From positions 1,879,659 to 1,943,658 of the forward strand of contig NZ_CP038033.1 in assembly GCF_004421105.1 (NCBI RefSeq): a DNA stretch of 64,000 bases, written 5' to 3'. Below, piece after piece: positions 37,293-49,994 of the stretch (positions within the stretch are counted from its first letter, which is position 1; every line of letters starts with the position of its first letter). This DNA comes from Nitrosococcus wardiae (GTDB lineage: Bacteria > Pseudomonadota > Gammaproteobacteria > Nitrosococcales > Nitrosococcaceae). The position numbers and the translations under genes were made by a program. The notes under the pieces were generated by a model, which was not told the DNA's origin, made no database searches, and saw nothing but the letters and a program-made list of their open reading frames with translations.

Positions 37293-37430
37293 AATATATC
37301 GTTGCCCATGAGATAATTAAGAAGTAAGCTAACTCTAGCTTAAAGTTAACCGGGAATCATCCTAATAGACCTGGGTTTATGATGGGGTTGCTTGAGGGGG
37401 GATAAATATTGCCTTTTAGTTGGTTGGTTA

Positions 37431-37592
37431 AGTATCTCAGTAAAAGTTTTGAAGTATTCCTGGAGTGGGCCGGTGGCGTGGAGCCAGGGGACAGGGAAGT
37501 CCCCGTAAACCCTTTTTTCAGGGAGGAAAAACGGATTTACGGAACACCACCAGCTCGCTCCTAAAACACCTCATATTTTATTCATAGGTACT
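37431..37592 (+). mobile_element. MITE-like interspersed repeat, copy A (162 bp)
   Basis: This lies in the 376-base gap between the GCS2 gene and the DUF190 gene. It is bounded by AGTATCT (37431-37437) and AGGTACT (37586-37592), which with flanking TTA and TAA form 10-base terminal inverted repeats (TTAAGTAYCT). It matches the inverse complement of 46244-46486 along its whole length, for example CTGGAGYGRGCCGGTGGCGTG, GAGCCAGGGGACAGGGAA and CTAAAACACCTCATATTTTA. The two halves are also partly complementary, so transcripts could fold into one long hairpin. No coding capacity is seen. The remaining parts of the gap (37293-37430 and 37593-37668) hold nothing I recognise. Confidence 0.85.
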
Positions 37593-37668
37593 TAAAGTGC
37601 CTAACACCTACCGCAAATATCCCGGGAGAGGTAGTTTAACGGCACTAAGCTGACTGAGGAAATTGAGG

Positions 37669-45345: not shown

Positions 45346-46232
45346 TGACACAACCAATTACTAAGGCCGTATTTCCTGTAGCGGGTCTAGGTACCCGTTT
45401 TCTTCCTGCGACCAAAGCAAGCCCGAAAGAGATGCTGCCCATTGTCGATAAGCCTTTGATTCAGTATGCAGTTGAAGAGGCTATTGAGGCAGGTATTAAA
45501 GTTATGGTTTTTGTCACCGGGCGAAATAAGCGGCCAATCCCTGATCATTTCGATAAGGCTTACGAGCTAGAAGTGGAATTGGAAAGGCGTGGCAAAAGCA
45601 AGCTACTCGAATTGGTACGGGGCATTGTTCCCAAGGGTGTGACCTGTGTCTATATCCGTCAAGAGGAAACCCTAGGGTTAGGGCACGCGGTTCTCTGTGC
45701 GGCGCCAGTCGTGGATGGACAACCCTTTGCAGTAATTCTTGCCGATGATTTGATTAATGCGGAAGAGGAAGGGTGCCTGTCCCAAATGACAAAGCAATTT
45801 AGTAAGCACCGCTGCAGCTTAGTAGGGGTAGAGGAAGTGGATCCGGAAAGTACCGATCAATATGGTATTATCCAGCCCGGTTTGGCTGAGGGGCGAGAGT
45901 ACAAGGTGGAAGGGATTGTGGAAAAACCTAAGCCGGTAGAGGCTCCTTCTTCACTGGCAGTCGTGGGTCGTTATATCTTGACGCCCCGTATCTTCAACCT
46001 ATTGGAGGCGACTCCCCGGGGGGTTGGCGGCGAGATTCAATTGACTGATGCACTGGCTACCTTGTTGAGCCAGGAATATATGTTCGCTTATCGCTTTAAA
46101 GGCAAGCGTTATGACTGCGGCAGTAAATTAGGTTATCTTCAGGCTACCGTGGAATATGGCCTTAAACACGCTGAGTTAGGGGACTCTTTTAGAGACTATT
46201 TGGGCCACCTGCTTGCTCATGGGGAACTTTAA
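45342..46232 (+). CDS. galU: UTP-glucose-1-phosphate uridylyltransferase
   Basis: Makes UDP-glucose for envelope polysaccharides, 296 residues. AVFPVAGLGTRFLPATKASPKEMLPIVDKPLIQY at the N-terminus (45366-45467) is the nucleotide-binding signature. FVTGRNKRPIPDHFD, ILADDLI and QYGIIQPG follow. Two adjacent ATG codons (45342 and 45345) are possible; AGGAG lies at 45334-45338. It is coupled to the dehydratase gene, so both probably feed the same polysaccharide. A mobile-type repeat begins 11 bases after the stop. Confidence 0.96.
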   Translation: MMTQPITKAVFPVAGLGTRFLPATKASPKEMLPIVDKPLIQYAVEEAIEAGIKVMVFVTGRNKRPIPDHFDKAYELEVELERRGKSKLLELVRGIVPKGVTCVYIRQEETLGLGHAVLCAAPVVDGQPFAVILADDLINAEEEGCLSQMTKQFSKHRCSLVGVEEVDPESTDQYGIIQPGLAEGREYKVEGIVEKPKPVEAPSSLAVVGRYILTPRIFNLLEATPRGVGGEIQLTDALATLLSQEYMFAYRFKGKRYDCGSKLGYLQATVEYGLKHAELGDSFRDYLGHLLAHGEL

Positions 46233-46243
46233 GCTTGCGTTAA

Positions 46244-46486
46244 AGTATCTATGAATAAAAAATAAAATATGAGGTGTTTTAGAAGCAAGCCGGTGGTGTT
46301 CCGCAAACCCGTTTTTCCTCACTGAAGAAAGGGTTTGATGCGCGCCCTCACTGGCGCGCCCCCCTGAAGGGCCTCCTGCGGATGTCCCGATTCGCTCCCG
46401 GCGAATCGGTGCGGGGATTTCCCTGTCCCCTGGCTCCACGCCACCGGCTCGCTCCAGGAATACTGCAAAACTTTCACTGAGGTACT
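46244..46486 (-). mobile_element. MITE-like interspersed repeat, copy B (243 bp, inverted relative to copy A)
   Basis: Bounded by AGTATCT (46244-46250) and AGGTACT (46480-46486), it is the inverse complement of copy A with few differences in the shared parts. It carries about 76 extra bases (46337-46412) that copy A lacks. These contain two hairpins: a GCGCGCC/GGCGCGC stem and CCGATTCG/CGAATCGG at 46388-46409. It fills most of the 344-base gap between galU and the formate dehydrogenase remnant; nothing else recognisable is there apart from the 90-base leader of the next gene. Confidence 0.85.
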
Positions 46487-46576
46487 AAGAAGCGGGAGTA
46501 GGCGAGTATTAGGAACATAACCCTAAAATGGTGAGTCTAAGGGGCAAAGGTTATCCTGTCCAAAGGGACATGGCCC

Positions 46577-47617: not shown

Positions 47618-48693
47618 TCCCCATGGTGTTTCCGGATTATCAGCGAGTGGATAACGCCGAGGCCCAGGCTAAGTTTGAAGCTCTTTGGGGCTCGTCACTG
47701 GATACTCAGCCAGGTCTGACGGTAGTGGAAGTGATGCAGGCTATTGCAGAAGGAAAACTCCATGGGATGTATATAGAAGGTGAGAATCCGGCCATGTCCG
47801 ATCCCGATGCCCACCATGCCCGAGAAGCCTTGGCTAAGCTGGAGCACTTGGTGGTGCAGGATATTTTCCTTACCGAAACGGCTTACCTTGCCGATGTGGT
47901 GTTACCCGCTTCGGCCTATCCAGAAAAGACGGGAACTTTTACCAATACGGATCGATTGGTGCAGCTTGGGCGCCAGGCCATTACTCCTCCGGGAGAGGCG
48001 CGTCAGGATCTCTGGATTATCCAAGAGATAGCCCGTCGTCTAGGGCTTGAGTGGAATTATTCAGGTCCGGCTGCGGTATTTGCAGAAATGCGGCGGGCGA
48101 TGCCAAGCATTGCAGGCATCACCTGGGAGCGACTAGAAAGGGAAAGCGCTGTAGTCTATCCTTGCCGCCAAGAAGGCGATCCTGGCGAGCCGGTGGTTTT
48201 TATTGACAACTTCCCGACTCCCAGTGGACGGGGTAAATTTGTGCCTGCCGATATCTTACCCCCTGATGAGCGTCCTGATAAGGAATATCCTTGGGTCCTT
48301 ATTACCGGGCGGCAGTTGGAGCATTGGCATACGGGGAGTATGACTCGCCGGGCTGCGGTGCTTGATGCGATTGAACCGGAAGCGGTAGCCTCTCTTCATC
48401 CCCTGGATTTAGAAGAATTAAGGGTGAAGCCTGGGGAACGAGTGACGATTGCCTCCCGGCGGGGTCAGGTGACTCTTGAAGCTAGGGCCGATGATGCGGT
48501 ACCTAGGCACGCGGTCTTCATGGCCTTTTGTTACTATGAGGCAGCCGCCAACCTGCTTTCCAATCCTGCACTGGATCCCGTGGCTAAAATACCAGAGTTC
48601 AAATACTGTGCTATTAAGGTCTCTGCAGGTGGGCAAGCGCCCCGTCTTTGCAGTTACGGTGGCGGTCAGACAGGGCAAAGTATTCCTCTCTAG
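47545..48693 (+). pseudogene. C-terminal fragment of formate dehydrogenase alpha (molybdopterin) subunit
   Basis: The frame reads GRRGTGLHPLRGQNNVQGAS, then PMVFPDYQRVDNAEA, MYIEGENPAMSDPD, LVVQDIFLTETAYLADVVLP and ends with the molybdopterin-dinucleotide domain (WVLITGRQLEHWHTGSMTRR). These are the second half of NAD-linked formate dehydrogenase alpha subunits. The N-terminal [2Fe-2S], [4Fe-4S] and the first molybdopterin domains, several hundred residues, are missing. Upstream the frame runs only into antisense-frame sequence of the beta subunit. The ATG at 47467 that would extend it is therefore spurious. A microhomology-mediated deletion joining beta and alpha genes is the simplest explanation; an assembly artefact is possible. 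Confidence 0.85.
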
Positions 48694-48721
48694 AAGTGGT
48701 TAACAGGGGGAAATTGACGAT

Positions 48722-48750
48722 GAGGCGCCTGCAGGCGCCTCGCTTATTTT
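48722..48750 (+). terminator. Terminator after the formate dehydrogenase remnant
   Basis: A perfect 20-base palindrome (48722-48741, GAGGCGCCTG and its complement) is followed by GCTTATTTTC. The stem with T-rich tail fits an intrinsic terminator left over from the original operon. Confidence 0.65.
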
Positions 48751-48939
48751 CAATGTCTGCTAGTGCTGAATAGGGGGCAAGGGTAAGTCATTTCTCGACG
48801 CACCGCTTGGTCGCGGAGATATGGTGTCCTTGGTTAAGGAGAGATAAAATCCAGCTGTTTCGTTTGGGCCAGTATTATCTTGGGTGAGGTTCATCCGCCC
48901 ATGATTATAGCGGTTCCCGTTTAGATGGAACTTCATTGA

Positions 48940-49141
48940 GCTTGGGGTCGGCATGACTAGAGCGTCGGCGGCAGAGATAAGCCGGGACCGTGGGTCCGGT
49001 GGACCCACGCAGACCGGTGAACGCCCGTCCCAGGAAGGGGCGGGCAGGACTTGCCTGCCGGCAGGAAAGGCTGGGGTGGCAAGCCGACGTCGAACTTCCA
49101 GGAAGGAATTGACAGCGTGTCTGGTCACGCCTGCCCCAAGC
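48940..49141. mobile_element. Second MITE-like element, 202 bp with 22-bp terminal inverted repeats
   Basis: Ends 48940-48961 and 49120-49141 are inverted repeats matching at 18 of 22 positions (GCTTGGGG..GGC.TGAC.AGA). A second complementary pair (CGTCGGC at 48963 and GCCGACG near 49083) lies just inside. The centre holds three successive hairpins: GTGGGTCC/GGACCCAC, CCCGTCCC/GGGGCGGG and CCTGC/GCAGG. It is unrelated in sequence to copies A and B. The rest of the 539-base gap between the formate dehydrogenase remnant and surE (48751-48939 and 49142-49232) shows nothing recognisable. Confidence 0.7.
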
Positions 49142-49232
49142 GTCTTAGGTCTCATTTAAACGAGAAATGCTATAAAAGACTGGCAGTGAGTGCTTTAGTG
49201 GTTAACAACTAAAACATAATGTGCCTAATAAA

Positions 49233-49994
49233 ATGAGGATACTCGTTAGCAATGATGATGGTTACCTAGCTCCTGGAATCCGGGTACTTGCCGACAGTTT
49301 AGCCGAAATTGCAGAAGTTATCGTGGTGGCACCGGACCGGGATCGGAGTGGTGCGAGCAATTCCCTCACCTTAGATGCTCCGCTGCGTGCAACCCTTGGG
49401 GAGAACGGTTTTTATCGCGTGGAAGGAACTCCGACTGATTGTGTACATCTCGGGATTACAGGGTTATTAGAAGAAGAGCCTGACATGGTCGTTTCAGGTG
49501 TCAATGGGGGCGCTAACCTCGGTGATGATGTTATTTATTCGGGCACAGTGGCTGCGGCCATGGAAGGACGGTTCCTGGGGTTGCCGGCCATTGCGGTATC
49601 TTTGGCCGCTGCTGAGCCTGGGCATTTCGAGACTGCGGCTTGGGTGGCACGTCGTCTGGTCACAAGGCTCATGGAAGATCCATTACCTGCCGATACCATT
49701 TTAAATGTTAATGTGCCCAACTTGCCTAGAAGGCAAATTACCGGTTTTGAAGCGACACGCTTAGGCCATCGGCACCGGGCTGAGCCAGTGATTAAAGATG
49801 CCGACCCCCGGGGGCGCCCTATTTATTGGGTAGGGCCGGCAGGTGAGAGTCAGGATGCGGGACCGGGTACTGATTTTCATGCCATTGCTCGGGGTGCCGT
49901 TTCCATTACCCCTATTCAAGTGGATCTGACTCGTTATGAAGCCCTAGACAAGGTAGCCGGATGGCTACGGCGAATCCCAATCCCTAATCCATGA
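49233..49994 (+). CDS. surE: 5'/3'-nucleotidase, survival protein SurE
   Basis: Metal-dependent phosphatase acting on nucleoside monophosphates and polyphosphate, 253 residues from ATG 49233; a GTG at 49221 would add four residues. Metal ligands Asp8 and Asp9 are in [16 protein letters not shown]. The serine of [13 protein letters not shown] and the asparagine of [21 protein letters not shown] complete the site. It overlaps pcm by 4 bases, as in the conserved surE-pcm-nlpD block. Confidence 0.96.

Follow-up and report, generated by a model that had tools for sequence, protein, structure and literature searches.

A gene-less palindromic MITE inserted at a TA upstream of surE in Nitrosococcus wardiae, with a candidate IS630-type partner

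Among the short dispersed repeats of bacteria, RUP of Streptococcus (107 bp) is gene-less, carries ends like those of an IS630 element of its own genome (IS630-Spn1), has a TA target and is proposed to move in trans, as described in the available portions of PMC2229807 and PMC3049150; all of these traits recur in the element reported below. The Correia or NEMIS elements of Neisseria, in the part of PMC2229807 at hand, share with it terminal inverted repeats (TIRs), a terminal TA and the formation of stem-loops once transcribed, and differ in occurring in forms of 107 and 155 bp and, for Correia, in a reported processing by RNase III. The ERIC sequences of enterobacteria likewise have a terminal TA, a TIR and a target duplication, and differ in length (127 bp; PMC2229807, in the same part). 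For such repeats, RUP excepted, this portion of PMC2229807 has insertion sequences (IS) with matching ends as either not sought or not found.

The present locus lies in a stretch of 64,000 nucleotides of the N. wardiae genome (NZ_CP038033.1, positions 1,879,659 to 1,943,658), hereafter the window, to which all positions refer unless a contig is given. A preliminary description, made from the letters alone, had pointed to a palindromic element between a formate dehydrogenase remnant and surE, which it took for either a small non-autonomous transposon or a structured RNA. The first of these is supported by the copy number, by a TA duplication, by empty sites and by an IS630-type element with similar ends, a candidate partner. 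The element is short and without a transposase gene, has inverted repeats, is flanked by a duplicated TA, occurs in dispersed copies and has an end-matched IS, and these are the properties of a MITE. Taken together, we regard it as very probably a gene-less MITE inserted at a TA upstream of surE, the partner being of IS630 type and the movement in trans.

Extent of the element and empty sites in relatives

The palindromic element is 265 bp long, and the 202 bases originally noted (48940-49141) are its inner part; the inverted repeat extends about 32 bp beyond them on either side (Table 1). In the nearest relative (G001; the window's own genome is G000, and G002 and G003 are more distant members of the genus) the flanks upstream of surE align at 90% and 92.5% with nothing between them and one TA. 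Since this joint is exact and uninterrupted, the element is placed at 48908-49172 and the TA on its two sides (48906-48907 and 49173-49174) is a target-site duplication. An uninterrupted TA (AAT-TA-AAGC) is also present at surE in G002 and G003, as seen when the joined window flanks were aligned over the four genomes, but the flanks of these two are much more diverged and a pairwise alignment with G003 placed the gap elsewhere, so the exact joint is taken from G001 only. The comparison of the surE upstream region that had been proposed thus finds the element missing from all three relatives; the element inserted at this TA and duplicated it. The longest family matches span from about 48901-48906 to about 49175-49179.

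Table 1. Features of the element and its surroundings (window positions)
Feature	Position	Strand	Basis or remark
Left TA of target-site duplication	48906..48907	.	GAT-TA-AAAGAC in G001 vs GAT-TA-[element]-TA-AAAGAC in window
Whole MITE, 265 bp	48908..49172	.	Alignment of family copies; empty sites
Left terminal inverted repeat, TAGCGGTTCCCGTTTAGATGG	48908..48928	+	16/21 vs reverse complement of right end
Inner stem, left arm	48940..48961	+	Fold; 18/22 vs 49120-49141
Optional middle, ~100 bp	48978..49077	.	Absent from short copies; element positions ~71-170
GC-rich hairpin 1	48981..49018	.	Predicted fold
GC-rich hairpin 2, 9 pairs, loop of 5	49023..49045	.	Predicted fold
GC-rich hairpin 3	49047..49085	.	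Predicted fold
Inner stem, right arm	49120..49141	-	Fold; pairs with 48940-48961
Right terminal inverted repeat, TAGCATTTCTCGTTTAAATGA read on - strand	49152..49172	-	Matched to left end
Right TA of target-site duplication	49173..49174	.	Empty-site comparison with G001
surE (earlier reader's name)	49221..49994	+	ORF from GTG; in-frame ATG at 49233

Three other properties had been claimed for the 202 bases. The 22-base inverted repeat is real: a terminal match as good as 18/22 was found in none of 300 random 202-mers (first-order), 25 of which had a match of at least 18 over 22 bases anywhere. The word terminal does not apply to it, the repeats being sub-terminal; the two ends of the whole element match each other over 55 aligned positions at 72.7% (BLAST). 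The statement that there is no coding signal is compatible with the open frames of at least 100 codons overlapping other copies, which vary from copy to copy; the ORFs at the element itself are of 68 aa (+) and 131 aa (-). Lastly, the dissimilarity in sequence from the palindromic family at 37.4 and 46.2 kb holds, the best BLAST piece being 20 bases with an E of 0.86.

Four insertions were tested for empty sites. Besides that at surE, copy L052 of G001 has an exact empty site in G000 and copy L012 of G000 an exact empty site in G001, the gap in both cases equalling the element plus 2; for the fourth, L013, no collinear site was found. Because each genome has an insertion absent from the other, the element moved in both lineages after their split, or some copies were lost precisely.

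Copies of the family and neighbouring repeats

The first search of the own genome, with a 301-base query around the 202 bases, showed the repeat to be dispersed, with matches of nearly full length at 73-88% identity. At E<=1e-3 the family occupies no fewer than 34 aligned places in G000 and 30 in G001, both lower bounds in which pieces of one copy are counted separately and 38 candidates per genome were scored. The element is therefore not a single occurrence, which the preliminary description had named among the things that would refute it. The same search (E<=1e-3) gave no place in 18 other genomes, namely G002, G003 and 16 more distant ones, and plasmids were without a match to the family. 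Across the class, three of 369 genomes matched, the own one included and G001 not among the 369, with the best two candidates per genome scored; the other two matches are pieces of 34 and 41 bases of the query (E ~6e-4). The exact right-end pattern had no match in a genome contig collection from which the own and very near genomes are possibly absent. In the open-licence literature, judged from listings, no description of a Nitrosococcus MITE of this type was found.

Fifty-nine loci were compared by BLAST, with a usable match at 53. The left end is recognizable in 31 of these 53 and adjoined by TA in 27, a count that is favoured by the choice of some loci through an end pattern containing TA; the right end is recognizable in 28, with TA in 19. 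Both ends are found at 13 loci, eight of which have TA on both sides and five of which are without it on one or both sides. These two-ended copies range in length from 76 to 267 bp. Since seven of them (L028, L093, L026, L058, L086, L054 and L061; 76-163 bp) keep both ends without the three GC-rich hairpins, the hairpins are dispensable for the spread of the family, and these copies suggest that only the ends would be needed for movement. In the G001 copies L054, L058, L061, L079 and L081 the element position near 70 is joined straight to 168-192. A comparison of 13 long copies (78 pairs) gave 90.6% identity for the closest pair, the window copy and L052 of G001, and 66.5% for the most distant; the family is old, and a recent burst or movement is not seen.

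REP and BIME sequences are built from a unit of some 20-40 nt associated with the REP-associated tyrosine transposase. An element of this type spread by such an enzyme is exceedingly improbable here. The element is palindromic and repeated, and in the 37.4/46.2 kb family of the same genome the middle, some 78 bp long, is found by itself in several positions, but inverted-repeat ends, the duplicated TA and a candidate partner of DDE type are at odds with such an origin, as is the hairpin middle of the element (48980-49080), which was never found alone: all 23 of its places in four genomes (17 in G000, six in G001) fall inside family copies. These 23 places also leave a separately mobile middle unsupported. 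A further idea, to which we attach little probability, is that the palindromic MITEs of the genus serve as docking sites for smaller hairpin units. It draws on the 78-bp unit, which G001 also has outside the 37.4/46.2 kb family copies, and on pieces overlapping this unit in two copies of the surE-element family; the three-hairpin middle of the surE copy could then be an older insert of this kind. If the idea were true, MITEs would grow by collecting hairpins.

Several other repeats were encountered. The 37.4/46.2 kb palindromic family (37420-37620 and 46223-46500 in the window) occupies at least 57 places in G000, 58 in G001, six in G003 and two in G002. It is modular: several short copies join query positions 39-115 straight to 188-264, and in G001 its middle (~113-192) stands without the adjoining pieces at twelve places or more. 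In two members of the surE-element family, L022 and L085, the middle has close to its start a piece overlapping the middle of the 46.2 kb family, so that one MITE contains a hairpin unit from another, unrelated one; two more, L017 and L029, adjoin an almost entire 46.2 kb family copy or are fused to it, one terminal repeat being replaced. At L012:1034-1130 there is a repeat of about 97 bp with 95-98% identity at nine places in G001, 100% at one more in G000 and 83% at one in G002, which makes it less diverged than the surE-element family. Another type of end, TATAGCGTTTCCCGAATAAAT, is found with near variants at several places (L043; G000:C1 2360544-2360564 and 2362619-2362639), and a distantly similar inverted end pair, about 95 bp apart, is present at L043:427-521.

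The 1051-bp IS630-type element as candidate partner

A search with the end pattern revealed six end pairs 1051 bp apart in G000, and these are insertion sequences. All six copies are bounded by TATAGC...GCTATA and two are identical. The IS has two frames that overlap where nine A follow one another, which by its arrangement is likely to be a frameshift site; both frames are full-length in five of the six copies, and in L038 the second stops early. In L037, the single copy covered by the Pfam scan, the products contain HTH_Tnp_IS630 (PF01710, E 8e-10) and DDE_3 (PF13358, E 1.7e-31), both above the Pfam cut-off, and in the transposase 34 residues separate the second D from the E. The IS has two whole-length matches in G001 (91%), one in G002 (87%) and a half-length one in G003 (83%); G002 thus carries a whole-length IS match but no MITE.

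The likeness between MITE and IS is confined to some 16-21 end bases and is not exclusive. In the consensus MITE and in the IS copies L041 and L038 the left and right ends differ in the same manner, with G on the left and A on the right at position 5 and the reverse at position 12. This pattern is broken at left position 12 by the window copy and by IS copy L042, both with G, and at left position 5 by the two IS copies of G001, which have T. Over 21 end positions the IS and the MITE differ at five in the left-left, right-right and IS-left/MITE-right comparisons alike, and at seven in that of IS-right with MITE-left. Since these counts do not favour left-left, the assignment of the partner rests on the probable common target, on the general sequence of the ends and on the two positions.

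Beyond the ends MITE and IS have nothing significant in common (best BLAST piece 16 bases, E 0.29), so that the MITE is not evidently an internal-deletion product of the 1051-bp IS; it may have arisen from another IS630 element or from one that has been lost. As to movement, the DDE transposase of the 1051-bp IS, or that of a close relative, would probably bind the ends of the MITE and move it in trans. A second IS630-like element is present at L097 (G000:C1 3939300-3941100); it is 68% identical to part of the 1051-bp IS, and one of its ends, TACAGCATTTCCCGTTTAGGT, is partly similar to the MITE ends.

Predicted fold, the surE leader and comparison with described repeats

The predicted fold of the 202 bases has an energy of -113.8 kcal/mol (z = -6.34, 200 dinucleotide shuffles). 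In it a long stem closes over four hairpins, of which three are GC-rich, and this bears out the three such hairpins of the preliminary description; the full 265-bp element folds at -137.3 kcal/mol. Ten of the 13 long copies pair their own two ends by at least eight pairs in each copy's predicted fold.

This fold and this pairing, together with the position of the insertion, which has the surE start on one side and a block resembling that of relatives on the other, are what a structured RNA would have in its favour, be it a riboswitch, an sRNA or a regulator in the surE leader with stems kept by selection. We consider such an RNA very improbable: it would be missing upstream of surE in three relatives, and there are short copies of the family without the hairpins. 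There was no Rfam match at the gathering score in the window, and at E<=10 the 601 bases around the element gave seven matches, the best of which (E 0.32) fell well short of the gathering score. For 13 copies RNAalifold returned -23.0 kcal/mol; its covariation term was unfavourable (+1.48), and six of 42 pairs showed a double change. Standard pairs were kept in 83.5% of cells (13 copies), as against 83.3% with the 3' letters dealt anew. With the window's own fold imposed on the 13 gapped copies, there were 12 doubly changed pairs versus 10.0 +/- 2.3 in shuffles, and for the same copies a covariation score of 0.110 versus 0.104 +/- 0.006, a value reached by 87 of 500 column shuffles; with 13 copies and many gaps, a weak covariation effect would stay hidden at this level. 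Sliding the partners lowered all measures except the doubly changed pairs at +1 (still 12), and most of this drop is expected because the structure was taken from one alignment row. The structured-RNA alternative thus finds no support beyond the fold, neither an Rfam family nor covariation above shuffle level. We take the fold to have come down from an ancestor that was itself palindromic; it is no proof of selection at the RNA level. In one copy, L018 (G000:C1 2793195-2793440), hairpin 1 is unbroken over about 17 pairs, and in other copies it is interrupted; template-switch correction of a quasi-palindrome could account for this.

The surE ORF was matched once in each of the four genus genomes. 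The MITE might additionally have become a regulatory part of surE: transcribed with the leader, it would fold in the message or be cut there, RNase III being one candidate enzyme. The end of the insertion is 60 bp from the in-frame ATG, and upstream of the insertion G000, G001 and G003 have a similar block with TATTAT or TATAAT; a terminator-like hairpin (48721-48742), located behind the upstream gene, separates that gene from the block. If the block is the surE promoter, as we infer, the element lies in the surE leader, and the 5' part of the message may then contain it as a large insert able to fold. MITEs within transcripts are described as leading to RNase III cutting or altered stability in the available parts of PMC2229807, PMC3049150 and PMC10969869, and transcripts of Correia elements as being cut by RNase III in those of PMC10969869 and PMC2229807. 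By analogy an effect of the transcribed element on surE is plausible, and it would probably be modest. A regulatory role proper is nevertheless unlikely, given that the scan of 48650-49300 returned no sigma-70-type site at its threshold and that only one of the four genomes has the insertion.

As a MITE, the element is ordinary in kind, and it leaves the understanding of MITEs unchanged. For the genus it does provide a delimited family that has a probable partner and differs in its insertions from one species to another, which is of use in annotating and comparing genomes; it also offers one natural case of a large hairpin element inserted shortly before a start codon.

With IS630-family insertion sequences, here the 1051-bp IS, the MITE shares terminal sequence and, to judge by the TATAGC...GCTATA bounds of the IS, probably the TA target, and it differs from them in lacking a transposase. 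Among the described repeats it appears closest to the pneumococcal RUP in its way of working, a likeness by description, taken from the available portions of PMC2229807 and PMC3049150. The two differ in host and in build, the 107 bp of the streptococcal repeat standing against a long form of 265 bp with an optional hairpin middle.
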